This document shows positions 11,273 to 59,500 of a stretch of 64,000 nt of DNA, one piece after another. The DNA is from Tetrahymena thermophila SB210 (taxonomy: Eukaryota; Ciliophora; Oligohymenophorea; Hymenostomatida; Tetrahymenidae): assembly GCF_000189635.1 (NCBI RefSeq), contig NW_002475939.1, forward strand, positions 1 to 64,000. Reading direction: 5' to 3'. How positions within the stretch are numbered: position 1 is the stretch's first letter; the number at the start of each line of letters is the position of its first letter. The position numbers were made by a program, and so were the translations under genes. Under the pieces are notes generated by a model that saw nothing but the letters and a program-made list of their open reading frames with translations, did no database searches and was not told the origin of the DNA.

Positions 11273-12948
11273 TCAACTTGAGTGCATGCAATTTTGAACT
11301 CTTCTTTAAGAGTCAAGGTAGATCATAGCTTCAGTATATGTTTCTGGGAACACTTTTGTAATTTTAGCATCTTTTTCAGCAACAAATGTTAGATGCAAGT
11401 CATTTGTTTTCAATCTTTCTTAACTTTTATTAACTTTGAAGCATTCAACTACTACGTGAATAACATTATCTTCACTAATATATCCGATTTTTGCATGCAA
11501 TTCCAAAATACTTCCTAAATCTACACCATTTATGAACTAAAAGTCATCTATTGCATATACTTCTATTCTTTATTTATTAGTATGGAGATAACCACACAAC
11601 CAACCTAATTCATAGGCTTCTCTCATGATATATCCTCCAAAAATATTTCCATGAAGGTTCTAATCCTAATATATCAGTTTTTATTAAATAGTTAATAAAT
11701 TGTTTGTACAAGTGAAGAGTAAACTAATCTAAATAAAAAATAAATATCATAATTTTTTTCTCAATAATGAACTTATTTGTGGGTTTGATTCAAATAATAT
11801 CTAAAAACTAATTTGCATAACCTAATAAATTCTTAATACATAAATATCCTCTTTTCATAAAAATAGGGAAAAGACCTTTAAAATTTATATTTTCTTCAAA
11901 TCAAATCAAAAATATTTAACTATAATAATAATCATTAAATATAATTTAATATCCTATTTCATATTTTTGTGGCATAATTAAATTAAAAGAAAGTTCAGTA
12001 ATATACCTGCTTATGCATGATTAACTTTTTAGATATATGAGTGAGATTGATTTATTTTTTATCCTTTTTTGATTCTTCTGAAGTAAAGAAATTATGAACA
12101 GTAAGACTTTCGTTATATGATGGAGGTTATTTCTTTAGAGAAGTAGCAGCTGCATTCTTTCTTTTTGTCTGATTTTAAATACCAAGCTAATATAGAATGT
12201 TACAATTTCTTACACTTTTCTCTCCATCAAATTTGAATACAGGTACTTGATGAGCTGTCTTATTATGACTTTCTTTACTTCTTGCTACTAATAAGAAGTT
12301 AGCTTTAGCTGCTAATTCTAATTAGTTACGGCTATTAACTTATAAGAGATCTAGCTATACTTCGATCGAACTTTTACCTGTATGTGTTGGATATCCCCTG
12401 ACAATAATATCTCTATCATGATGGATTCTTCTATAAAACTGTATATTATCGACACAAGCAGCCATTATTGTTGCTTATTGCATATACACATATTTATAGG
12501 CAACTGTTGTTGCTACGTAATCATAAAGTTCTAAAATACGACCAATTCTTATTGATTTTGTGTTCAATAATTCCATAAATCTTCGTATAATTTCATTTGA
12601 AGAACAGGGTAGCTTAACTTCGTAATAGCAATTACGAGGATAATTAACTTTTTCATCAGATACTTCTTTATTTATAGCTTCATACACTCCTATTTCATAA
12701 AATGCAGATGGGAAATAACTCTATACTACCCTATCTGTCTTTTTCTCTTCCTATGTTAACTCTCTTTTTTCATTATCAAGAAGAGTAAATCTAATTGCAT
12801 CATGAGAAAGTTGGTTTAATTGGTTTTTTAAATTGATCGCATCGAAAACCTAAGAGTATTAAATTCCATTCAAACCACTTAAGTATCTCTTGCTGTGATA
12901 CAAAGTAGATTGAATCAACTAAGATTAAAACAATAATTTTTTTATCAT
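11273..12948 (-). CDS. ACOT9-type acyl-CoA thioesterase, tandem hotdog domains (copy 1)
   Basis: Hydrolyses acyl-CoA to free acid and CoA, probably in the mitochondrion. Two exons, 12948-12007 and 11665-11273, with a 341-nt intron encode 444 aa, close to animal ACOT9. Residues 1-25 are basic, amphipathic and free of acidic residues, as in a mitochondrial presequence. The first hotdog domain has SIRIGRILELYDY and the motif AACVDN; ACOT9 has the equivalent GRILEDLD. The second domain has LHGNIFGGYIMREAYELGW, the typical HGNIFGG hotdog helix. The intron falls just before this motif. The next gene upstream (13521-15163) is a diverged tandem copy. Substrate chain length cannot be read from sequence. 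Confidence 0.93.
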
Positions 12949-13520
12949 ATTTTTGTTTATTTTCTTTTGAAAAACAATAATTTTTATCTTCTATTTTTAC
13001 TATATGAATGGAATAATGTAAATCTTATTTCTGATTAAATCATTTTGATAATTGCAAAATACCTTGTGTTTAATCAAAATAAAAATACAATAATGATGCA
13101 TTATTTACTGAGAATTCATGATAAAAAATTGTTACTTTTTTAATGTTACTTCAAAAAAGGTTTAATAAAAAACTTTGTTAACTAAATAAGCAAATATAAA
13201 TATTTCTTAAAAGTTTTAGAAAAATATTTTTAGGACTAGTAAGTAAGAAAATACAATATAAAAAGCAAATTTATTTGACAAACAAAGACTAAAAATATGT
13301 TTCTAACTTATTAAAAGTAAAAAAATTGTTGATAATTTTTTACAAACAATTTATTTTTAAAAAATAAAATAAGAAGTAAAAATGTTAATATATTTAATAC
13401 TCTAAATAATTATAAATTATTTAATTACAAGTTTCATTAATAAAAACATAAATTTTATTTTATTAAATTATTTTAATAATATATTTCATCATATAAATTA
13501 GAGAAAATGTAGCTTAGATT
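12949..13520. other. Spacer between the two thioesterase genes
   Basis: About 570 bases of AT-rich sequence with no coding frame. It must contain the promoter of copy 1 and the 3' UTR of copy 2, which are transcribed in the same direction. Confidence 0.6.
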
Positions 13521-15163
13521 TCAAAATAGCAATTTATCCAATCTCCTCTTGCAATCTAGATATATCATTGCTTCTTCATAAGAATAAGGGATAACTTTAG
13601 GTAGTTAAACCGTTTTAGGGGCTACTAGGGTTATATGAAGATCATTAGATTTAGTTCTACACTTATTTGTATCTACAATACTGCAGTTTACCACAACTTA
13701 CATAATATTTTTCACTACATAACCTAATTTTGCCTCAAAATTAATAATTGATCCTACAGCTACGGGTTTTAAAAATTGGAAATCATCTACATGGCAAGTC
13801 AAAGGGTAATCTCCTTTTGAATGTATTAAAGCTGCAAGCCATCCCATTTCCATAGCTTCTCTCATCTATATTATAAATGACGTTAGTATTTTTTTTTTAT
13901 AAAATAAATATAGAAGTAATAATTACCAAGTGTCCACCAAAGATATTTCCATGAATATTTCTATCTTGTTTATGCATCAATAAGTTTTTATCAAAAGTAG
14001 TAGCTGAAATTTAGATAGATTGTTGGTCTTTTTGTTCTGCTAAAAACTAGTTTTTATTTGAAAAGAATTGGTGGATCTCAAATATTTCTTGCTAGTTAGG
14101 TGGTTTATTTTAAAGGGATTCTAACTTTTCTTTCTTTCTTTTGATTGTATTTTTAACTCCTAAATGTTCTCTTAGTTAACATTTTTGTATATCCTACTCA
14201 CCTTCGAATTTAAGAACAGGAACTTGGTAGCTTTTTGACCTATCATTAGCATCTCTAGCAACCATTAAAAATAATGCACTTGCTTTCAAGTCTCCTTCTT
14301 AAAATAAATCGAGCTAAATTTCCATAGAAGATGTACCAGCATAAGTAATGTATCCTGTTATTAAAAATAAATAAATAAAATTTTATTTCAAATGAATAAA
14401 AAGGCTCAATTAAGTGTGTTATTTATTTTTTTTTAACACAGGAGTAAATAATAATAAGAAGTTTATGATATAAATAGGAGATGTTGTATGCTAAATTATT
14501 TTACCTTATACTTCTAAATCTTTATCATTTTTCATTTATGAATAGAAATTCATATTATCTACACAAGCGGTGACATTAGTAACATGTCTTTGTCCAATAT
14601 CTGTATAACAATGTCTATTTTATAAAATTTTATAAATAAAAATCTTTCAGGCATCTAATGAAATTAGAATAGAATATAATAAAGTAGGTAGATATAGATT
14701 TTTACCTATATGATATATATGCTGCTATGTAATCAAGAACTTCGAGAATTCTACCATATCTCAACCCATCAGAGAAGTAGTTAGTAAACCTATCTCTAAT
14801 CATTGTATTTTTTTCTAATGGGAATACTACTTTATAATAAGAGTTTCTAGGATAGCTGACATTCTTATCTTCATGGTTAATATTTTTGTGCTCATAAATC
14901 TTTATATTAAAATCTTCATTCATAGTTGTGAAGAAATTTTTAATAATAGGCTGTCTTCTATTTTCTTCTTCATTTAATAATCTTAAGTCCTCGTCCTTAA
15001 CTCTCATTACTATTTCATTGTGCTAAACTTTGTGCATGTTGCTTTTAAGCTACAAAAACTAAATTTCTTAAGAGTTAAAAAATCTCTTGCTCTAAAACTA
15101 GAGGGACTTGAAACTCTAGCTCTATTTGTATAAGAACTAAGTACCTTTAAATAATGCTTTCAT
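13521..15163 (-). CDS. ACOT9-type acyl-CoA thioesterase, tandem hotdog domains (copy 2)
   Basis: Paralogue of the gene at 11273-12948. Four exons, 15163-14706, 14614-14505, 14354-13927 and 13865-13521, encode 446 aa; introns are 91, 150 and 61 nt. The N-terminal 40 residues are rich in Lys, Arg, Ser, Gln and Phe without acids, consistent with a mitochondrial presequence. Domain 1 shows LRYGRILEVLDYIAAYISYR and TACVDN; domain 2 shows IHGNIFGGHL followed, across an intron, by MREAMEMGW. It keeps the same domain order as copy 1 but has two additional introns within domain 1, and its last intron interrupts the HGNIFGG region at a different point (after GGHL). The pair probably arose by an old tandem duplication. 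Function as acyl-CoA thioesterase is well supported; substrate is unknown. Confidence 0.93.
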
Positions 15164-16052
15164 ATTAATTGAATTTGCAATTATCTTTTAAATTAATTTA
15201 TTAATTAATTACTTATTTTATATTTATTTGATATCTAAGCATCAAAAATCTAATGTTAAAATATACTTGATTCTCTTCTATACTATTAATAATTGCGATT
15301 CTGATGGTAAAAATTTTCATCTTGATCCATATTATTTGGAAAGAATAGGTCATTAACATTCCAGATAATTTCTTTTAATAAATTCAATATAAAAAATAAG
15401 ATCTATACTATGAATAAGCTCAGTTGTATTTATTAATTTACACTTCTGATTATTCATAATTTACTTTAATACCATATTGTTCTATGCCAATAGTGTAATT
15501 AGTAAATAATATGATTGCAATAAATTTACTTTTTGCAAGTGCAGATTTTAAAATGAAATATTTTCATTTTATTTATTTTTTTAAAGATTGGAGTAGATAA
15601 AAATTGAAAGAATTTTCAAGAAATTTTAGTATTTTAATTCTAAATTAATTAAAATAGAATATAAATTCTTATCAAATTTAGTAACTTTGTTGATAAAAAA
15701 AAAACAATTCAACTTTTATTTTTAAAATATAATTTTTCATTTACTAAAAAGAATTTCAATTTTTCATAATTTATTTTCAAAGAATGAAAGAATATGTTTA
15801 CAATTTTTGATAAATAGATTTTACAGAATTTTGATAACGTTTTTAAATTAATAAATAAGAAAATTTTATTATATTTTTATTTATAAAGTATTTTGAATTA
15901 GTTAATTAATTTATCATAGTTTTTGATTTTAAAGCTCAGGAGATAGTTATGACTATAATTTATTTTTATTAAGAGTTCTTTAATTATTATTATGTTTTTT
16001 TATCAATGTATTTTAAGAGTTATCTTTTGAAATTACTTGAAATTGAAGGAAC
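15164..16052. other. AT-rich intergenic region
   Basis: No coding frame seen. It lies between the start of thioesterase copy 2 and the 3' end of the flavoprotein gene. Confidence 0.55.
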
Positions 16053-32633: not shown

Positions 32634-34219
32634 TTTTAATCTTTTAAATATTACTTATATATATAAATGATAAATAAAGTATGAAAAAAATATCAAAGTG
32701 TTATTATTAATAATAGTAATTAGATTTTATTGATAATTATTATATGTGTGGTTTGACAAATTCTTAAATTTAAAGATTGATAAATAATAGATACTAACAA
32801 AAAATACGTATTAATTCATTAAAATTAATCTATCTCATGTAAAAATATTTAAACATTTTAAAGATTCATTAGCACTTACTATATTTATTTAGTTAGATAA
32901 TTCATTCTAAAATAGATTATGTTTTTTTTTACAATTGCGATAGAAAAACTCTACTTTTGTTATGTTTCTCTTTAGAATCTTGTAGAAATAAAAATCATTC
33001 ATTACAGATACTAATTAAATTTATTAATTCAATCTTGAGATATTTATGATTTAATTAATCCATTATTTTTAGTAGTTTATTATGAAATTTAAAGCAAAAA
33101 ATTTTTTAATTTAAAATATTCTAAATAACTCAACATTTAATAAACAATTTTATTTTTTTAATTTTAATACAAACAATTATGTTAAATTAAAATTAATTAA
33201 TAATGATATTATTAATATCCTAAAAATTAATAAACATTGCCTTTTTTTGGCAAATTTATTTTTCAAAAAATTATGTAATTTTTTTTTTAATGCTAAATAA
33301 TCTAAAAAGACAGAACTATACCTTATATATGTTTTTCTTTAGAGCCATGTAAAAATAAAAAACGTAATTAACAAACATAAATTAAATTTATTAATTATAT
33401 CTAGAAATATGTATCATTTATTAAATTAAATTTAACTTGTGTTAGTTATTATTTCAAATAAATGCAAATAAAAGTAAATATTTTAAAATTTAAATAAATT
33501 ACAATTTTTAAAGATAGATTATTTATTTTTAAAATCTTATAATTAATCTAATGAAGTAAATTAAAGAATAATTAATTTAAAATAATAAAAATAATAAAAA
33601 TAAGACAAAGTATTTTCAATTTGCCTTAATCATGAAAAAAAAAATAAAAACTGCATATTTTTTATCTGTTGCTTATTTGTGAATTCAAAATCAACTATGA
33701 TTAAGATTTAAATGAATTCCGTACATTTTATAGTAATAAAAGCTGTTTTTTTAAAATGAAAATTGAAAGGTTGGTTTAATACCACAAAAATAAACTGAAA
33801 TAGATAAGTAATAAAATGTGAATTAGAAACTGATTGTGGAACTAAAAGTATATTACCATAAAGTTGTAAATAGGAGATTAAATTCAATATCTTATTAGAA
33901 AACAGGTGAATAAAATTAATAATAAGCATAATTGTTCAGTGATATATTTCTGTTTGTTTGTTTGATAATACAAAAATAGGAATTTTGATGAAAAACTGTG
34001 ATAGTTTGAATCATTCAACCATTCTTTAATTATTAAAATGCTTGCTAAAAGCTATACGGGATTAGTGTGCATTTTTTAATTATTGATAATTCGATTTAAA
34101 AATATTAAGAAAAGTAAAGAAATAATATTTAATACTTGAGCTCATAATAAAAAGAATTAAAAGATAAATAAATTTTTATAAGTAGTTAAATAAAGGAGAG
34201 AGCTTTTAGTTAATTAGAA
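32634..34219. other. Divergent intergenic region with a diverged direct repeat
   Basis: Separates the IQ/ankyrin gene (minus) from the FBPase-like gene (plus), so it should carry both promoters. It contains two related copies of a roughly 115-base sequence (listed separately). A 99-codon minus frame at 33630-33929 was considered and rejected. Confidence 0.55.
32938..33420. repeat. Diverged direct repeat, two copies of about 115 bp
   Basis: Copy 1 is about 32938-33052 and copy 2 about 33308-33420. They share an ordered set of blocks: a GA-AGAA start, TATGTTT(C/T)TCTTTAGA, a TGTA-AAATAAAAA block, ATTAAATTTATTAATT, and a final GA-ATATTTAT/ATGTATCATTT segment. By eye they are roughly 70 percent alike. 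This could be an old local duplication, a small non-coding RNA pair or a regulatory duplication. Confidence 0.5.
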
Positions 34220-36314
34220 ATGGGTGCAGCTTGTTCGTGTAAAGGTAAATTATAAATTTGAGATAAATATTTTAAACAGAAAATTTGTTTAAAATGAAAA
34301 GACCATTTTAGTTTTAGTTTAAGTAAAATCTTAAATTCATGGAAATTAAGTTTTTTAAAGCTAAAGATTGCCCAAGCCAATATTTATTTTAATAAAAAAG
34401 AAAAGGATGATAAAAGCGAGATTTAGATCCACTACACAACAACGACTGATAGAAAGGTATCAATCAATCTTACACTTTTTTAGTTTTATTTATAGGCGTT
34501 TACATTTAAATCCTCCTTTTAAATGTAATTAAAATGTATAGAGCATTTGTTTATTTATTTATTTTAAAATATCCTCAGAGCCAAATAAAATATTTTTCAT
34601 TCTTTTATCAGTAATCTTAAACTTATTTATCCCCTCTTCGCATTATTTTAACAGCTAACAAAATTTTTATTCTGAAATTAATGGAAATCAACTTTTTAAA
34701 AGAAAGAAGTCATTTTAGTTACTTTAAAATATAGCCTATTATTGTTATTATATTTTAATTTTCTATAAATATGACTTAATTATTAATTGATTTATATATA
34801 AATCAAGGAAAGCGCAGATAACAATAATAGTTAGAAGAAAGAGGTGAGGATAAATATTTTATTTAATTTAAGAGTTTAAAGAAAATCAATTTGGCTTTTA
34901 TAATTCACTTTGAATTTTATAAATAAAAGAACATCTTTAACTTCATTTTATTTGAATTATTTCTTTTTATTTTATAAAAACAGCAGCGTTTAATTACTAA
35001 TCAATAATTGACTAACTAATTGTTAATTTATAACAAATTTAAATAATACTATATTAATTTTTTTATTATCATACCCTAATGGGTTAAAAGAAGGGAAGTA
35101 GCGATGAAGAAATTAATGAAGAAGAAGAAGAAATTAAAGATTTACCTGTGCCTGATAATTAGAAAAGCGAGTTTTAAATTAGTAAAGAGTAATAGAATGA
35201 AGGTTTTACGTACTTGCCATTTTAGACCAAGAATAAGGAGTGTGTAACTCTTACAAAGCATTTACTCACTAAAAAGATATCGACTTATTTAAAAGATTCA
35301 TTTTTAGACTTTACTTTGATTTTGTCATAGCTGTAGCAAGGTTTTATACAAATTTAAGATAGGATATCAAGGAGACATTTTTATTACACAGGGGAGAAAG
35401 CTAGAGACAATAAGCTTCTGTTAGATGATTGCTGTCAGCTTTTTGAAGATGTCCTTAGAGAAAGTGAATTATGTTGTGTGACCTATTGCATAAAAAGAGA
35501 TAAATTAGAAAAATATATTGGTGAAAATTCATCAAACGCTAAATATGTTATTATGTTTACAGGATTAGATAATTAAGTAGATCCAGAGAATAACTGTGGA
35601 TCTCTATTTGCTATTTGGAAGAGAAATACAACCAAATTTCGTCCACTTTCAGAAAAAGAAGATATTTTATAAAGTTGTAGCAGTATTATTGCCAGTGGTT
35701 ACTGCATGTATGGTTAATGTATGAACCTTATTTTAGCAATTAACACGGATGTTAATGGATTTTCATATGATGTAAGTTAAAAAGAATTCATTTTGACCCA
35801 CCCTAAAATAAAAGCAGCTCAGAGAACAGGCATTCTTTCAGTAGATACATCGAAAGAGTCAGGTTGGGAGCCTCCCATAAAAATATTTATAAACCGTAAA
35901 TACCAAAAAAAAGACAAAAAGCTAAGTCTTAGATATACAGGATCTCTTGTCGCTGATGCTCATAGAACACTTTTATACGGAGGTATTTTAATGTATCCTC
36001 TGACTAATCCAAATTCTGAAGGAGATGTGAGTTTGATTGAGGCATTCATCCTTGGTTATATATTTGAAAAGTCTTGGGGGAGAGCAAGTCAAGGAGAAGG
36101 TGGTTCTGTTACTTAGATGAAACTGTACAACTTATAATAAAAAACACAATTTTATTGTGGAACCTCTGCTGAAGTAGTAGAATTAGAAAATGTATATTTA
36201 TCAATAGCACGTCGCCAATCAATAAATAAATCAATAGCTTCTAGATTTTCATCCAACCAAAGCATAGGCTTAAATGGTTCTCTAGATTTATCAGTAAAAA
36301 GTGTACATTCCTGA
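34220..36314 (+). CDS. Fructose-1,6-bisphosphatase-like pseudoenzyme with N-myristoylation signal
   Basis: Four exons, 34220-34244, 34401-34456, 34808-34843 and 35091-36314, give 446 aa. The first exon encodes MGAACSCK: Gly2 fits an N-myristoyl acceptor and Cys5/Cys7 could be palmitoylated, so membrane attachment is predicted. Residues 9-85 are acidic and extra to the family. From 90 on it aligns with class I FBPase: VTLTKHLL (91-98), KYVIMFTGLD (to 199), SGYCMYG, FILTHPKIK, RYTGSLVADAHRTLLYGGIL (from 320) and YIFEKSWG. Known catalytic residues are lost: the SEED glutamates (Glu97/98 in the human enzyme) are absent, and DPLDGSS is TGLDNQV, keeping only the second Asp. Residues about Arg320/Tyr321, which bind substrate in the family, remain. 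A regulatory or scaffolding role at a membrane is likely; catalysis is unlikely. The last about 40 residues are a Ser/Asn-rich tail. Confidence 0.92.
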
Positions 36315-37384: not shown

Positions 37385-40300
37385 TCAAATTCCTTAAAGA
37401 TTGGACTTTTCACTTAAGCGGGATAATTCTACATAAATACTGTTTTTTTAATTCCTGAGTTTTTAAAAAGTACTGTTGTTGTTTTGATTACTAATATTAT
37501 TTGGTGTGTTAAGATATTATATGCTTGATTTTTTGTTTTTTAAAGTTTTTTATTATAAAGTAGTATTCTTTTGAATTGTTTATAAATTTTTTAGACTATT
37601 TTTTTAGAATTATGATGTAACGGCAAAACCTCTTTCAGTTTGTTTAGTGTGATTTATGATATTATTTTATAAAGTATGAAGCGATTAACCAAAATTAAAC
37701 GGTAAATTCGCAAGATTTGATGTAAAATATTGAGGAAAAATATATTTAAATTATTAGTTAGCTTAGTATTCTTCCATTTTATACTTTGATATAAGCTCAA
37801 TTTGCTTTTTAGCTGCTAATTCATTGAAATCTATTTAAGTAATAGATGATGGTCTGATTGTTAAAAACGTCAAAAACGATAAAAAAAACGACAGGATACT
37901 TGTCGTCATTGAAATAATGACTGTCGTATTTAGTTATGATCCAGCACTCTTTTATAAAAAAAGAATCTACAAAATAATCTAAGGAAGATTCTTAAGTAAG
38001 AATTTTTGCATATAATTTAAGATATGACTATTTATAGATTAGTTTCTCCAACCTCTAAAAATGCACCAGTCCGGTAGATGCTTAACGTTGTAAGGACACA
38101 TTTAATCTAATACTTCACTTAAAGCGCTACATTCAGTTAGAGCTGCTATTTTATAGTATTATATAATATTATCGGTGTTCAAAACTCTCTATATTTTTCT
38201 CTTCCTAAATAAGTATCTCAAAAAATATATGTAATTTAACATGAGATTAAAAGCCAATATTCCAACAGAGATGTATGCATATAAGTAATACCTATTTTTT
38301 ATTTTTGTAATAATTATTTTAAAATTAATCTAAGATATTTTGTTTTGTCGACAAAAATAATTTTACTATTTTTAAAAGCATGCTACTATAAAAGAAACTT
38401 CACTAAATGTATCGTAACGAGCAATAACACTTTAAAAAAGTTATATGCCACATCGCAGAATTTTGTAGTTAAACATTTTTATATTCATTAAAAACTTTTT
38501 TAATGAATTCGATATTTTATTAACTATTCCCTTACTTTTTGTCACGTATAATCCTGGTATTAGATGAGAGACATATCTCAAAAGTCCTAAATACAAAAGA
38601 AGTTCTACCATAAAGCTCAACCCTGCAAAACCTGCAAAAATAAAATAAGCTATTGGAGAAATTTTACCACTTGGATTGTGAATATCAGAAAATAAAGCAG
38701 GAGAAAACTGTGTAAACAATTACAATATATTTATAATTATCAATATTTCTTTAAATCCAATACCATAAACTTTCTAATTTATAATATCATTATTCAGTTA
38801 AATTACCTATTTTTAATTTTTTTATAAAATTAAAAATAAAATAAAAAGAAATTTTAAGCAAAAGTAATATAAAAACTTTATTAAAATAAAATGAAATTTA
38901 ATTTAAAATAGATTAATTATTTTATTTAAAATATTCAATTAATTACCTGCTGATCTAGTTAATAAATAGTTTCTTTACCAATTATTAAATCTAATATTGA
39001 ATAAACCATTTTTTTTATAAAAAATGTAAATCTATTTATCTTTTTGCTTGGATCCATTTAGTAAGCTTTCTCAATTAAAGAAACTGCAATTCCATTATTT
39101 AAAGCAGAAGTTTCATTATAGTCTATTTCACAGCTTTCAAAGTAGTATGAATCATATAAAATACTGTAGAGCGCTTTTAGGAAATTTAAATTAGATTTTG
39201 GTTTTGTTCTTATAATAGTAGGAGGCATTATAAGAAGCTTTTAAATAAGTTCTCTTTCATTTAGATAGTAATATGAAGGATCTTCTTAGTTAAATTCGTA
39301 CTCTAATTGGATTGATTTAAGAGACATTATATGTTGGCAATAAGATTATATAGAAAGAATAAATGTTCCATCTTTAATGCATTCAAATCCTGGATTCAAA
39401 GCGCTAGATGGGAAGATTAAATGTTCTAGCTGATTTGGTATAAATTCTAATATTTTAAAGAAATTAGCATTCAATATAATAGTATGTAAGTAAGTGCTAT
39501 CAGGCTTAATTGGTAAAACACTCCTGCATGTCTTAAGGAAAAGTTCATTTACAAATAAAGTCGTCATACCATAATTTGTAAATAGTGATTCTAATTTAAA
39601 AAGTTTGAAATTTTTATTAAAAGAAAAGCAGTAAGCAAGTAGAGGCATCTCTTCTAACGACTCCCTTTTTACTATCAATGTCTTTTTGTTTTACATAAAC
39701 CAGTAAATTTTTTCTATACATGAAGATAAATCTAGCTAAGAAATAGATAATTTATCTAGATAAAAAGTGTCTGATAAAGTTTAAAGAGTATCAGGATCTC
39801 CAGTGTTTTAGTTAATAGGTGAAGTAGCTTTACTTTTATTTATGTTTTCTTAGGTTGTATTATTTTTTTAATTAGTTGGTAAAATACAACTTAATCTATA
39901 ATTTGTGTTAACTCTGAGCTAAACTTTAGAGCATTTTCTTATAACCTTTCTAAAATACTCTAACTTTTCTTGCCTACATCCTTAAACAAAAATACTGATT
40001 TCTTAGAAAGATGGTAGCTTGTTTGCACTATTTTCTAGGTCTAGAGCTTTCTGATTATTTGAATTAAGATTTAGAAAGTTTGAAAAAAAATTTGCAATTG
40101 TTGAAGATGGATTCTTTTGTAAGTCAGGCTGAGTGGGAAGAGTTTCCTACTCTTTCAATGAATAATTTGTAAAGAAGTTAGTTTATTATATTTCTTGTTC
40201 ATTGTTGCTATCAAATTTTTTAATTTATGCCGTAACATCATCTGACTCTTTTCTATATGGCAAGATTTGTTTTAAGCCATTTTATAGATTTTATTAAGGC

Positions 40301-43300
40301 TAATTATTTTGTTAGTTTTGGCTACTTGACTGCTGATTTATTTAACTGCTCTATTTATTTACTAGATCTTCACTGTTGCTATTTGAAGAGCCTTCAATTT
40401 TCAACAAATTAAGTTAGAATTACTTTTTATCATTGAGAGTAGTATTAGTTCCATTAGGAGAGTTATTCAATGAGTTTTGTTTCTCTAAAGTATTGTTCTA
40501 GCGGTTATATGTTTATATATTTGTTTTTTCAATTTATTCTGAGCCTCTTTTCTATAGCTTACTTTCATTTTCAAAAATATTTTTATAATTGCCTGCTACA
40601 AAAGGCTTTTTAGAGGCATTAGGGCTGTTAAAATGTGGATTATAGCTCTAAGCAAACAAAGAAGGAGATATATCAAATATATGGCTTTTTTAATTCATTC
40701 CTGTGTTAGGAGAATCAAGGTTATTTCCAAAATTTGAAATTGAGTGTGCGCTAGGATTTATTTACAAATTTTAGAACTGTTAAGGTCTTCTTTTTGATTT
40801 TGGAGATTAAGAGGGTATTGCAGATACGTTTACATTATTGAGCTCTGTTAAAACTTAATTTTAATCAAATTTTTGTAAAACATTTGATATGGTTTCTATG
40901 TAAATTGATGAAATAACATAATTGGGATAATAAAGATCTAAAGTTTAAATTGTTTAATAATTATGATATATTATGTTTTATAAAAGTTTTGTCAAAACCA
41001 TTTAATCATCGATGACATTATATGACAAATCTACTTGCTAAATATTTCTATTACAGTCAAAAAATTCAATAAGAGCTTTAGCTCTAGCATTGCTGATCAT
41101 GGAATATTACTCACTTCCACAAATTTTAAGGCGTTTCACACTTTTGCATTAAAATATACTTTCTAATAGGAGATGTAGTGGACTTGTATTGATCGAATTT
41201 TAGCTGATATCTACTTCCTCAAGCAATTATAAATTTTCATGATACTCATCAAAAATTTGACTAAGCATTTCTACTCTTTCATCATCTAAGACCTGCATTT
41301 TAGGAGAACCCACTAGGCCAAGCTTTTTCAGAGATTAAAAGCTCCCTGCAAAAATTGTTTTTGTAAAATTCTCCAATACGTTGGGATTTATTAATGCAAT
41401 TTCTGTTATGATGACTTCTTGTAAACTAGGGAATATTTTTCCACCAAAAGTGTTTATAATATCTTAATAGGAAAACGTTTACTCGTTATTTTCAACTTCT
41501 TCATGATCAATCATCATCTGCTTTTAATAGCTAGAATGGTGTCTCTTTATATCTAAAGTCCTTGATTTGTTTATCTATTTTAACTTAACAGATTTGTTCT
41601 CTAATAAGCTTTTGAATAAAATATTGAGAGGCCCTGCATCTATGTCATTTAATGAAATGTCTAAAATTCTAAAGTAGCATTAAGAACCACTAGTTCCTAA
41701 AGCATTGTTAATTGCAAAATTTCTATTTTTATTCTTTTAACTAGCTAACATTTAAGTAAAATTAATTGTTGTCAAGTTTGATGATATAGAGCTAGTGTTT
41801 TTTGTAGCAAGGCATTACATAGCATTTGCAACAGCTTTTGCTTTCTCATTTTCTATCATAGAAAATGATTAATACCCTCTCAATCTAAGTACCTCTAAAT
41901 GGTTGCAATTAATTAAGATACTGCTAACCAATTCTCCTAAGACACGTGCACTAAGAGCTACATTACGAGATAGATCTATTTCTTTGATATTCTGTATGAA
42001 GTCTACGTTGTCTTCTAAAATGTTAATAAGAATTTCTGCTTTCTCATTTGTAAGCATAACATGTGAGTTAGAACCTGCTAAATTTAAGCATTCTAATTTA
42101 CCACAATTAAATATTAAAGAAAGAATTAATTTTTTAAAACTCTCAGTTGGCATTGCTAAATTTTAGGAGAAATCTAAACATCGAAGCTCCTGACATATTC
42201 CTTAATCTAAAATTTTAGAAATTTCTTCTGCTATTGAGTCATTTATCATTGATTCCTTTTCTTTTCCTACCATTCTGATAAGTTATAAATTAGGAGAAGA
42301 CTCAAATATATTATTTAATAACAAACCAAGATCTGATAATGATTTCTTGGTAAATAGGCAATTAAAGGAGATATCAATCTCTTTCATACTCTTGACCTTC
42401 TTTTTAGAAAATGCTTTTGCTAACAAACCAACATTCCAATCAGTTATCATATTTTTTCCTTCGTCATTTCTTCCACGAATATAAAGCTTTTAAATGGATT
42501 ATTCTTAAGTTCTCAACAAAGCTTCTACAAAATTAGCTAGAGAGTTTTAAATATTCTAGTTAATTTAATGGTTATTTTGAGGAGCTTATTCAATTTCTGT
42601 GTTATAAGAAATATCAATAAGTTTTAATTGATTCTTCTTAACAAGCTTCATTTCATATAAAAGTTCTGATAAATACTCCAAATCGTTTTACTTTAGTACA
42701 GAATACTTTCTTTCTTCAGATCCTTTTAACAGTATTTCTGTAATATTAGGAGATTTAACTAAAATAGCACAAATAAAAGTAATGTAATTCTATTATATGC
42801 TGCCACTTAAATCTAATACATTTAGAGAATTTAGATTTAGGTCTTCATCTGCTAGAATAAGACTGCAAGCATGCCCAAATATTTAGCTAAAGTCAGTAAA
42901 TTGTTTCCTCTTCTTTTTTCTCTCATCACTTCCATTTCCATAGATGTTATGTATATTGCTATTGCTATCTTCTCCAGTTCCATTATTCTGGTTACTATCT
43001 TAGTCATTCATGCCACTTGTTTCTTTTTACTTTGAAATTTATTAAAACACATCTTATTTATCATACTAGCTTGGAGGTTAAGAAACACACTCAGTAATAA
43101 AAATATTTACTAGCTTTAATTCTTTCAAAGTTTAACTATTTCTTCTTAAGATTGTATAAAGGGATTCGTCTGTAAAAATATTTCCATCTAAAATTATCTG
43201 CTAAAATCCCATTTAAGAATTATCATTGTGAAGAGCTTCATCTAATGCACAAGCCATCCAACTGTTTTTAATGACATTTTTCCAAGATAAAGTCTTTTTC

Positions 43301-46300
43301 ACATTCTACCTCATAAAGCTTGTTATCATTTAAACAACTAAATCTTAAGTAATAAAACTCTCGTTTATTTATAATCCATCCAATTCTATACAGCATTATA
43401 TATTACTCTCTTCTAATTTTCTCAAAATCTCATTTATTTCAATAATAAGCTAGTTATCTTTGATGTCTAAATTTTTTATAACTACTTTTTTGGATGAAAA
43501 AAGAACTGCCTCAAGTAAATAACAAAAGTATTCTTACTAAATTTATCTATTAAATAAATAAATAATTTATAAGAATTTCTTATTTAAAAAGTAAAATTTA
43601 AAATCAAACTATTTCAGAAGATATTGTTAGTATTTTAAATTAATTTCTTTTAATCTTCTTAAAAATATAAATTTATATTAAAAAACTAAAGATTTTTTGC
43701 TTTTAAATTAAATACATGATAGAGTCTTAGGAAAGCTTAAAAGATATCTCAAACACCTCGAAGGTTTTGTTAAACTCTTTGATTTTACTTGATAAAGTAA
43801 AAGCAAAATTCTCATTATACTAGACTAAGATAACTTCTTCAAGCCTCTTACTCTAACAAATATAATCAATTAAATAGTTTTCTGTATGCTAACTGCATTT
43901 TTTTAAATTAACTCTAGTCAAATCTAGCTTTAAGTTGTAGTCCTTTTAAAGATAATGATTTTTTATAATAGCTGTTAAAGAATCCTCATTTTCAGCTCTG
44001 AATAACTCATCACATTCAATTTAGTAAAAATCTTACACTTCACCTCTGAGTTTATCAACACTCTGAAATTAATAAAACTATTTACTTTTTTTTCTTGCCT
44101 CTTTTTTTGAAAGTTTTTATTGAATTTGCTGCAACAAGCTATTTTTTGGTTCTCTTTCTTTATTTAAATCTGGATCAAATTAAATTTTTTTCTTTGTTTT
44201 TTAACCATCCTTTTTGAGTGCAGCCTTTTATATATTTTATAATTACATATCTTATTCTTTCTTTTTAAGTTCAAGTTTCTTTTATTATTTATTAAACTCT
44301 CTTTGGTTTTAATTATCTCTTATTTTATGTCTGTAATCGTGAGAGTTAATCATTTTCTTTTTTTAAGTAAAGTCCTCTTTTTTATATTATTATGCAGTTT
44401 AAATTTTTTCTGTTTCATAAACAGAATTAATATTCCCTTCTTGCTCTGCTTCGATATTACAAGTAGATATACTTAAATCATTTTGATTGGTTTTTTTGGG
44501 TAAATTATCGTTATTCAGTTAAGCAGCATTAATATTTTCTAATTACTGCTTATTAAATCCAAGCTAAGTATTTTTTTTAGGGCTTTCGTCAGTAAATTAA
44601 TTCTGCAAATTATCAGTCTTTTAAATAGAGATAGATAAATTGTTTTTAAAATTACTGTTAGTCTCTCCCTCAATCACTGCTTAACTCTCTACTCTTCTTC
44701 CTATATTTTAATCCTTTTTAACTTCTCCTTCTTCATTTTAATTATTCATTAAATCTACTATTTATAGTAGCTTTTTTTGATTTTAATCCTTCAGTAAATC
44801 TTATTCATCTATCTGTGTTAAGTTATTCTATGTTGTTAAAATAATTTAAGTTTAATTGCTATTAGGAACCAAATTAGAAGCAGGTTTAGTATCTTTATTT
44901 TTATCAATTTTTCCAACATTATCTTTTTAAACTTATTTAATTTAATCATTTTTTATTTGAACTTCAATTTCTTTTTTTGGGCTCTTTTCTTTTTATTTCG
45001 TTTTATCATTCTATTTTTTCGCCATTTTTTCGTTTTTTTCATCAATAATAGATTAGAATTACTTCATTACTTTAAGGTATGACTACGATTTAATAACATA
45101 ATCATTATCAAAAATTTAAAGAGAATTCAAGCTTTTAAAATCTAAAATATCTAAATTTTTGCTATGTAGTAAGAAACAGAATTCTGTTTCATTCATGTGA
45201 TTGCCTCCAAATACTATTTACTATAAATGGTTTTTATTCCACCATAGCAAATTTTTAACTATAATTAAATGGTCAATTAGAAGAGGCACATTTACAAAAC
45301 ATATACTTTTTAATTTAAGATTTCTTAGCTTAGAAATGACTATTTTGAAAATGCTTAAGTTCGGCTTATACAAATTTATAAATGTTACTTCTTAAATAGA
45401 ACTTTCATTATATTACAAAGTATCTAATGTATATTATAATCCCTTCTTACTATTAAATGTATTTTCATCAATTGTATAGCCTCTAGCAATTCTATTTTGT
45501 TTAAATTAAATAAAAACTTAATATAAATTCTAAAGGTCTAAAACATGCTTCTTTTTTCAGATTGTTTTTTAAATTATTGAGAAAAACAGAATATTTCAAT
45601 CATTCTAAATTTTTTATACTTATTTAGTTAGAAAATTTCAATAATTAAATCTGCAAATACTCAAAATAAATGTTTGTTAACTAAAAAATATATCTGATCA
45701 ATTTATGGTTGGGTAGAAAATAAATTACTCAAATAGGAAGTTAAGGTTATTTCTCATTAGTATATGAGCCATTAATTCTTCTTCTAAATCTAATAAAGCA
45801 TTCTCATACTTGACTTGCTCCCACTTTTACTGCTAAGCATCCATAATCTTGAGTGGTATTAATGGTTACAGAGAAATATTAATTTAATTTATTTAAGGAA
45901 GAATTTGTGGCTTCAAATAATCTTCAAGAAAAAGTATTCTTACAGCTTAGTCTCTCGAAAGAATTAACTTTTATCTGATAAATTGCATAATAAAATTTCC
46001 TTAATATAAAGTATGAAGTGAGTTTTCTGTATGTAACTAGACCTAATTCAACTCTATAACTCTAATATCCCTCCTTTAACTATAAATAAATCTTTTAAGC
46101 ATCATAATATTGAGAACGCTTTTTGAGCAACCTAATATTTTGATTATTATTTTATCTTTGAATCCTGGTACCTTCTTACAGAGCATATTTATAATATGAA
46201 ATACATCCATTTTACAATTCATTATTGTTATATCAGTTACAAATTTATTACTCTCTGTATTCATAATTGCTTTCTTTATATTTTCTATTTACTTTTCTCT

Positions 46301-56500: not shown

Positions 56501-59500
56501 ATAATTAACTATCAATTTAGTTTACTATATATATATCTTTGAATTAATTAAATTGAAATAGAGATAGTGCCCTATTTCTTAAATTGTAAATTAAGTAGTA
56601 GTTATTATCAAAGGCTATATTTTAAATTTCTAATAGTTACGTCTAGAACAAATCTTCGCTGTAGATGCTTAGTTATAAGTCATACAAAATTATATCCTAG
56701 GTATCTTTGTAAACTGTTAATACATTTAATTATTAATCTAAAGCAATACTGGTAATTTTAGAAGAATAATTTAGATTATCGTAAATGACATCTAAAAATT
56801 TTAAACTTGGAAATGAGTGACAATAAATAAATTATGAGTCGTAAAAGAAAATAGCATTTTTATTGTTATCGATTACGAAGCCATATAATTTCTAGTATTG
56901 TAGCAATTAGCTAGTGAAATTATTTTACAGATATTAATAAATTATGAGAGATGGAGATTAATCTAAAATAATAATTTGCTAGTTGCTCAAATCGACATAT
57001 ACATTTTAGATATCAAAATAATTAGCTGTATTAGTTAAATACTTTATTTGAGCATTTAAAGCATCAAATATCTTTATGCTTCTTGTCTTCCCATCTATCT
57101 ACAATATATAATTGTATTGATAGTCATATTAGAAAACAGTGGAATCCTAATTACAAACAGTAAATTACTGTGAAGTTGTTTTTTCTTGTACTTATATAAA
57201 TTAGTATTGGTAATCAGCAGGATAAACTAATATTTTTCTGTCAATATCATAATAAGGTTTACAGCCTTCTATATTCATCTACTATATATTCTAAATTAAA
57301 ATTAAACAAAATATAATTTTTAAAATATGATCCTCTTTTGAAATTAATATTTACAAATGTTTGATTAGGATTTAATTCTCCTGAGCTTATAAAATATTCT
57401 AAAATAGAAGGAGAATATAAAACAATCAGATTTTTTTTGCAGAACAGCATTTATTTTAAAGATAAATATGGATTTTATAGATAATTTATAGCTTTGATTC
57501 TCTAAGTCATGTACTAATTTATTTTTAAAAATAAAATTAAAATTAAGAAATTTTCTTTAATTTACATTAAAAACATAAAGTTTTTGTGTATCTGTTTATA
57601 TAATAACAGTTTGCTACTCAGTACAAATCTAGAGAGAACTAATTGAAGAGAAAGTCTAGATAGTTTTTAATTGCTGTTAGCTAGGTAGCGATGGATCAAA
57701 TAGGTAGAGTTTATCTTCATAATCACTAAAAACAAATTTATCTAAATTTTAATCAACAACTATTAATTTAAACTGATAATTAAATTAATACTACTAAATA
57801 ATTTTAAGGTTCATTAGTTTTTTTTTAATTATTTTTTATTGAGACTTACTGTAATAATAAACTATGTAATTTTAATTATCTGCATAGATAATTTATGAAT
57901 CACTACCTAATTACGAATAACTATAAGGACTATTTTCAATATTTCTAATAACTTTAGGAATAAATATAATACTATCAATTATAGTTGTAAGTGAATCTGT
58001 TTCTGTTTTGCTGTAAAATATTTTAAACAAATTAACGGTTGTATCTAAAATTTTTATTATTTTCATATATTTGTGGTGTATTATCTGAAAACCGTAGCAT
58101 GCCAATTCAAAATTTTATCCAATAAAATATAAAGAATAAACTTAATTTGGATTGTCTTAAGCATTTACAAAAGTCTAAATTGTAACAACTTAGAGAAGAT
58201 TTAAATCGAATTTAAAGAAAGATTATTTATTACAGAATAAAACATATCCATCTCTACTTTTGTAGTAGAAGAATAATGTAGGAGAGCTTAAGCGAAGGCT
58301 TATAACTTATTAAACTGATAAATCAGGATTTAGTTGAATTACAGAAGAGCTGTTAAAAAGATATAGAAAATTTTGTGATACCCCAGAAAAAAGTCCTGAC
58401 TCAATATCTTACCCATAATCATCATATGATAATTAGTTAGGAGAAAATGTAAGAGTTTTCAAATTAAAAGCAACTATGTATTGATAATTTACAAAAAGAT
58501 AAATATAATCCTGAAAAACAATTTCATATTCATTGTTGTAAATTTACTCTTGAACATATTAGATCCAGTAATAGGAATAATTTTAAAATAATTGAACAAC
58601 AGTTCTTTTGTTAATGTCATATAAATAAAGAATCATATTGTCATTATCAATTCCTAATATTGCATCTTCAATTTAGATTGAGTAATTTATATAATTAGAA
58701 GAAGGACCATTTGAAAAACTGCTTACCCATTCATTTTATTATAAATCAAATAGCATGTTATAGCTAGTTACAAGTATTAGATTATTTTTAGAAATGTAAA
58801 TACTTCCAATCACACTAATTATTGACACAGAAGAAGGAATATTTAATTTTGTGATTACTTTTTTTAACTTTAAATTATAGATTACAAGAATGGTTTGACT
58901 TATTATATTATTATATTATATTGTGATTAGATCGTTATTATTAATTACCTACTACATACTTTTACAACTAAGTATTTAATTGTCCTCATTTAAATATTAT
59001 TCGTTAATCCAAATATTTTTGTACATTTCAGCTTGTTAGTAAAATGGTAGATATAGCTATGTCTATTGATAAAAGCAAAACTATTCGTTTTATACTACCA
59101 CAAATGAAAGAGTATTTTGCTAAAAAACTTAATTATAAACTCCAGTTTTTTGATTTCCTAAACTATTATCAAAGAAATTTGTATAGCCTTCAGTTGTAAA
59201 AAATTAAATATTCTATTAACTAGAGTCACTACTGATAGTTGCTTCAACCATATAAGAAGCTTTTTATTTGTAAATAGAATAGTTGAAAAATATGTATAGT
59301 TGTTAATCTATTAGATACACACTATAAATTATTATTTAAGAAAATTTGTTGGACTAGAAACAAGGAAAACTAGATGATTGCAGTTAAGATTGTTAAAAAA
59401 AGCTATCATTAATAGTAATTAAGCAAAATTAACTAGATTCTCTAATTAAAGCATAATAATTATTTTACCCATAATTTAAGGCATAAATTCCATTATAAAT

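Follow-up and report, generated by a model that had tools for sequence, protein, structure and literature searches.

In the 64,000-nucleotide stretch of Tetrahymena thermophila DNA analysed here (the window), positions 34220-36314 of the forward strand hold a ciliate gene whose product, hereafter the window protein, is a full-length class I fructose-1,6-bisphosphatase (FBPase) homologue in Pfam and PDB searches. Telomerase exons of the host genome match the T. thermophila telomerase of PDB entry 6d6v without a difference over 198 aligned residues, which identifies the species. The genome (101 Mb in 445 contigs) was read with TAA and TAG as Gln, and under this ciliate code an uninterrupted open reading frame of 411 amino acids extends from 35079 to 36314, ending at a TGA stop. 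Both FBPase domains are present near full length and score above their curated cut-offs. The N-terminal domain PF00316 (35247..35804) aligns from 2 to 191 of its 191 profile positions, at E 4.3e-19 and 69.3 bits against a cut-off of 34.8; the C-terminal domain PF18913 (35820..36197) aligns from 3 to 126 of 127, at E 1.4e-22 and 80.3 bits against a cut-off of 27. An earlier sequence-only reading had described a strong class I FBPase pattern here, and the motifs that it quoted, RYTGSLVADAHRTLLYGGIL (35931-35990), VTLTKHLL and FTGLDNQV, are all in place. Of the 42 distinct PDB sequences matched at E 0.001 or below, almost all carry the name FBPase or SBPase, and the top match is 5oey (E 7.9e-37). 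Against the NCBIfam class 1 equivalog the best score was 157.4 bits with a cut-off of 368, a cut-off that also lies above the 281.7 bits of the canonical T. thermophila paralogue on contig C13, scored as a partial protein of only 245 residues. From 35232 onward the coding score of the frame is +0.25 bits per codon (other frames -0.09 and -0.18), and the FBPase domain is free of introns, compared with two in the C13 gene. An AlphaFold model built from six sequences was poor (pLDDT 52.9, pTM 0.56); the homology nonetheless suggests that the family fold is kept.

Two other regions of the window, both on the reverse strand, drew attention by eye. At 11998-15241 neighbouring frames look alike and are perhaps a tandem duplicate; the first hits 4HBT, a thioesterase family, at E 9e-6, and the second (13786-14646) had no Pfam match at E 0.001. 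At 38938-45556 two long frames of 1660 and 650 amino acids appear leucine-rich-repeat-like, and neither had a Pfam match at E 0.001.

The metal ligands of class I FBPases are Glu97, Glu98, Asp118, Asp121 and Glu280. The window protein was aligned with C13 and four bacterial FBPases, and a second alignment added pig FBPase, whose numbering is used throughout. At the five ligand positions the window protein carries Ile, Lys, Thr, Asp and Glu respectively: in the alignments with C13, pig and the four bacterial FBPases CIKRD (35487..35501) replaces the SEED glutamates (Glu97 to Ile, Glu98 to Lys), and FTGLD (35556..35570) replaces FDPLD, changing Asp118 to Thr and keeping Asp121. Two residues are missing at 122-123, deleting Gly122 and Ser123, and elsewhere in the site Asn212 and Lys274 have both become Asp. 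Arg243, Tyr244, Leu248 and Tyr264 occupy the corresponding positions, as does Lys215, a change from the Tyr of pig that means little because C13 already has Asn there. In the catalytic loop (50-72) 10 of 23 positions are gapped and the rest is unrecognisable, only one of 13 aligned residues matching C13. Depending on the alignment, position 68 is Asn or Glu and position 74 Leu or Lys, with two aspartates nearby and Asp74 retainable under another local alignment, and we therefore do not count Asp68 and Asp74 among the firm losses.

A yeast Fbp1 mutant screen (PMC5349122) also names Glu98 and Asp118-Ser123 as site residues and reports that single changes at Asp79, Glu109, Asp131 or Ser133, the equivalents of mammalian Asp68, Glu98, Asp121 and Ser123, each abolish activity. 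Of these positions the window protein keeps Asp121, has an alignment-dependent residue at 68 and lacks both Glu98 and Ser123, which makes FBPase activity very unlikely. The earlier proposal of a catalytically dead protein, made from the absent SEED glutamates and from DPLDGSS reading as TGLDNQV, agrees with the alignments: the loss of Glu97, Glu98, Asp118, Ser123 and Lys274, together with the degenerate loop, strongly supports inactivity at the level of sequence.

Searching the T. thermophila genome with both Pfam domains found four FBPase-family loci; querying with the window protein recovered three of these (the C280 locus not among them) and no other. The C13 gene, with SEEED and DPLDGSS, is a canonical FBPase, and the genome thus holds an intact-looking copy beside the window gene. 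The C280 gene is SBPase-like, with SEEQ and DPLDGSS, and a T. thermophila SBPase is named in PMC3503850. Compared with canonical class I FBPases (pig and human FBP1, yeast Fbp1, C13), the window protein is homologous in both domains over about 295 residues, but it lacks Glu97, Glu98, Asp118 and Lys274, has a degenerate loop and bears an extra acidic region at its N-terminus and a tail at its C-terminus.

The fourth locus, overlooked in the sequence-only reading, is a second degenerate FBPase at L012:2247-3569 (G000 contig C54, about 56746-58068). Its metal motifs read FTSLDVDHL and DTKDDE, with no SEED pair and no Asp118, and its residues are Thr97, Lys98, Thr118, Asp121, Asp212, Arg243, Arg248, Phe264 and Asp280, with Lys and Arg at positions 68 and 74; none of the 10 aligned residues of its loop matches C13. 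Lys98, Thr118, Asp212, the shortened loop, the motif NNCGSLF and a Ser-rich tail are common to C54 and the window protein, whereas the C54 gene differs in having an intron inside the domain and in that an MG start was not found in L012:1401-2330. Upstream of the C54 FBPase, on the same strand, lies a cyclophilin-type ORF (PF00160, E 2.6e-28; L012:1-1350). Its donor at 1351 scores 7.4 bits and matches, in phase 0, the FBPase acceptor at 2247, which scores 9.3 bits, so a cyclophilin-FBPase fusion is possible at this locus.

Two scans of a genome-contig collection found no relatives, nor did a scan of a viral-contig collection with an alignment of the two paralogues, and no orthologue from another ciliate was found in these two collections. 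Besides a few fragments, pattern scans of the viral contigs yielded five full-length bacterial FBPases (L014-L018). All of these but L017 entered the alignment and the tree; the fragments did not.

In the resulting eight-row tree (window protein, C54, C13, pig and four bacterial FBPases) the window protein and C54 are sisters with 100/100 support, and these two with C13 split from the pig and bacterial rows at 96/92. The window protein is about 34-35% identical to both paralogues and sits on a long branch, as does C54, so that the tree taken by itself might be misleading. The pairing agrees, however, with the shortened loop and with counts of shared-residue columns using pig as outgroup, which number 25 for the window protein and C54, four for the window protein and C13, and three for C54 and C13. 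Given the fully supported clade and the 25 derived residues, catalytic loss probably predates the duplication; a single loss before the split, followed by retention, is what these sequences suggest, with the window gene probably a maintained pseudoenzyme and not a decaying gene. Pseudoenzymes as such are well known, and the features found here are loss of catalytic residues, a family fold kept by homology and an intact-looking paralogue in the same genome.

Conservation is uneven along the protein. Identity to C13 is 20/40 over residues 161-200 (22/40 for both C54 and pig) and 18/23 over residues 243-265 (C54 17/23, pig 20/23), falling to 4/19 over residues 266-285 (C54 1/13). The best-conserved segment, RYTGSLVADAHRTLLYGGIL at 35931..35990, holds the subunit-interface residues Arg243, Tyr244 and Tyr258, which are among those given for muscle FBPase in Table 4 of PMC4822563. 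When 20 interface positions from that table were mapped by pig numbering, the pig residue was kept at five in the window protein (Gly168, Asp187, Arg243, Tyr244 and Tyr258), seven in C54, 16 in C13 and six in L014, and since L014 is a bacterial FBPase with intact motifs the count speaks neither for nor against pairing. The conservation of 243-265 itself suggests that the window protein may still pair with another subunit.

The N-terminus of the window protein is predicted to be assembled from short upstream exons. Comparison with the PDB telomerase fixed the exact position of 17 of the 18 telomerase junctions tried; 16 of these 17 introns start with GTAA, and 12 end in TAG, four in AAG and one in CAG. 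Splice-site matrices were built from the 17 verified introns and three introns from the C13 and C54 FBPase genes, and every ATG in 34101-35232 was scanned as a possible start. The top start was 34220, whose best model reaches 55.1 bits and whose four-exon model reaches 54.0, followed by 34294 (35.2 bits), 34407 (30.7 bits) and an unspliced, single-exon start at 35079 (30.1 bits), which was set aside as the only start on this score. Predicted exon 1 (34220..34244) encodes MGAACSCK plus one base, ATGGGTGCAGCTTGTTCGTGTAAAG followed by GTAAATT, and its donor AAG/GTAAATT (10.4 bits) is the best of 19 listed for the region. Exon 2, EKDDKSEIQIHYTTTTDRK (34401..34456), has a GTATCA donor of 4.6 bits and an uncertain acceptor, 34302, 34377 and 34401 all being in phase with exon 1, and the longer stretch 34361-34456 has a coding score of 8.1 bits in frame (other frames -2.0 and -7.1). 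Exon 3, ESADNNNSQKKE (34808..34843), is in phase with both neighbours and scores 8.6 bits as coding (other frames 1.7 and 3.5), with an atypical donor, GTGAGG, of 2.7 bits. Exon 4 (35094..36314, with the TGA at 36312-36314) carries the end of the acidic linker, the whole FBPase-like domain and the C-terminal tail. Two alternative last-exon starts score close to it, 35091 at 53.7 bits and 34984, combined with different linker exons, at 53.5 bits; 35094 is preferred over 34984 because 34986-35096 shows no coding signal.

Six models from 34220 fall between 53.0 and 55.1 bits and differ in the linker, whose exons are tentative. The acidic region of about 80 residues described earlier corresponds in the preferred model to an extension of 88 residues, 22 acidic and 12 basic, its exact content varying with the linker exons. 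In dinucleotide shuffles 7 of 200 (highest 61.5 bits) and 72 of 1886 reached at least 54 bits, so the gene-model score is modestly unusual; 12 of the 1886 had a top multi-exon model opening with Met-Gly and a small residue at position 6, and in none of the 1886 did such a model also reach 54 bits.

The N-myristoylation consensus is an initiator Met-Gly with a small residue at position 6, and the MGAACS start of the best gene model has both; Cys5 and Cys7 might in addition be palmitoylated. The genome encodes an N-myristoyltransferase (NMT; PF01233, three matches on C280, best 3.4e-27). The pattern MGxxCSC, picked post hoc, has seven matches in the 101 Mb genome and two in the reversed control; five of the six others, read without splicing, meet a stop after 3 to 29 residues. 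At the sixth, on C82 (L050:1501), MGNACSCDDD opens a 196-residue frame that looks like a real start and possibly belongs to a dual-acylated protein. As no MG start was found for C54, an anchor may not be a trait of both degenerate copies. On this evidence the window protein very probably gains a Gly2/Cys acylation signal from its predicted first exon, and a membrane anchor is probable. The MGAACSCK start of the sequence-only reading therefore stands as the sequence at 34220 and as the best-scoring start, although it is a prediction through introns and not a direct reading, whilst the membrane tethering drawn from it is something that we infer, plausibly, from the start model and the NMT gene.

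At the other end of the protein a Ser-rich basic tail opening YLSIARRQS (36195..36311) is absent from canonical C13. The C54 tail, opening YLSIRRKNS, is similar in kind, both being Ser-rich and beginning YLSI. The RRQS of the window protein resembles a basophilic kinase site (RRxS).

On balance we favour, with somewhat more confidence than doubt, a reading of the window gene as a non-catalytic FBPase pseudoenzyme, probably acylated, that acts as a membrane-held binding partner. Counting against it are the kept Asp121 and Glu280, the weak exon 2 and exon 3 donors and the failure to find an MG start for C54. The last two, together with the 72 of 1886 shuffles that match the model score, would equally suit a soluble pseudoenzyme, non-catalytic and lacking a membrane anchor, whose real start lies elsewhere or is an unacylated 35079. 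We judge this unlikely, though a serious contender, as none of the other listed donors (19 in all) scores as high as that of exon 1, its start leads the others by about 20 bits, and the fallback start at 35079 would itself open with a Gly2-type sequence, MGQKKGSS. The latter fits the PROSITE myristoylation pattern.

A membrane-held sensor of AMP or a sugar phosphate, as the sequence-only reading had also suggested, seems to us improbable. Lys112, Tyr113, Thr31 and Asp29 of the AMP site align as in C13, as do Arg243, Tyr244 and Tyr264 of the 6-phosphate site, and to this extent the idea keeps some ground. Ligand sensing is nevertheless less favoured because Asn212 is Asp, Lys274 is lost, Arg140 is Lys and Gly28 is changed in both alignments; residue 27 is alignment-dependent, and C54 has Ile31 and Phe113.

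It is very doubtful that the window protein is still a phosphatase, perhaps for another substrate, with metal held by Asp121, Glu280 and acidic residues elsewhere: those two ligands, Arg243, Tyr244 and Tyr264 are kept and there are acidic residues close to the SEED and Asp74 positions, but the SEED pair, Asp118, Ser123 and Lys274 are gone, the catalytic loop is degenerate, C54 likewise lacks the SEED pair and Asp118, and the yeast screen (PMC5349122) found single mutants at the Glu98 or Ser123 equivalents dead. A decaying pseudogene without function, to which the long branch and the 34-35% identity to both paralogues might point, is just as improbable given the uninterrupted 411-codon frame with coding-like codon use, the local nature of the degeneration (161-200 and 243-265 being about as conserved as between pig and C13) and the 25 derived residues common to the window protein and C54.

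Under the favoured reading, of a lipid-anchored pseudoenzyme, an FBPase related to the canonical copy would have given rise to the window gene, the metal site being lost before the split from its C54 sister and the gene then being kept. The first exon would supply the Gly2/Cys acylation signal; a linker, acidic and probably disordered, would come next, and the FBPase fold with segment 243-265 could pair with itself, with C54 or with active FBPase, or dock other proteins as a scaffold. The Ser-rich tail may then serve as a phosphorylation switch. A bolder form of this idea, in which dead FBPases form a small Tetrahymena family of regulatory or anchoring subunits and the dual-acylated window protein recruits active FBPase or C54 through 243-265, is speculative and we would not bet on it. 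If true, gluconeogenic control, or an unrelated signalling scaffold, would be placed on the membrane by a pseudoenzyme.

Among the matches listed in our literature search, titles and abstract openings describe neither a dead FBPase as a protein in its own right nor this Tetrahymena gene, and the portions seen of PMC6957481, PMC3503850, PMC7232342, PMC12911363 and PMC8836295 make no mention of an inactive FBPase. Automatic annotation elsewhere could well have labelled the window gene as FBPase, and caution is warranted in that FBPase-labelled genes in T. thermophila may not be gluconeogenic. Two dead copies in a genetically tractable ciliate, one of them probably lipid-anchored, would offer a clean system for studying the FBPase fold minus catalysis. 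A possible parallel is parafusin/PRP1, phosphoglucomutase paralogues linked to exocytosis in alveolates; PMC5705807 reports that the lytic cycle of the parasite does not depend on PRP1. The likeness is one of outline, a sugar-phosphate enzyme family with a membrane-side role in alveolates, but the enzyme family is a different one from that of the window protein. Another comparison is with the non-catalytic functions of mammalian FBP1 and FBP2, in which the FBPase fold is used for protein partners; these proteins are still enzymes, whereas the window protein lacks the catalytic residues and is encoded by a separate gene.
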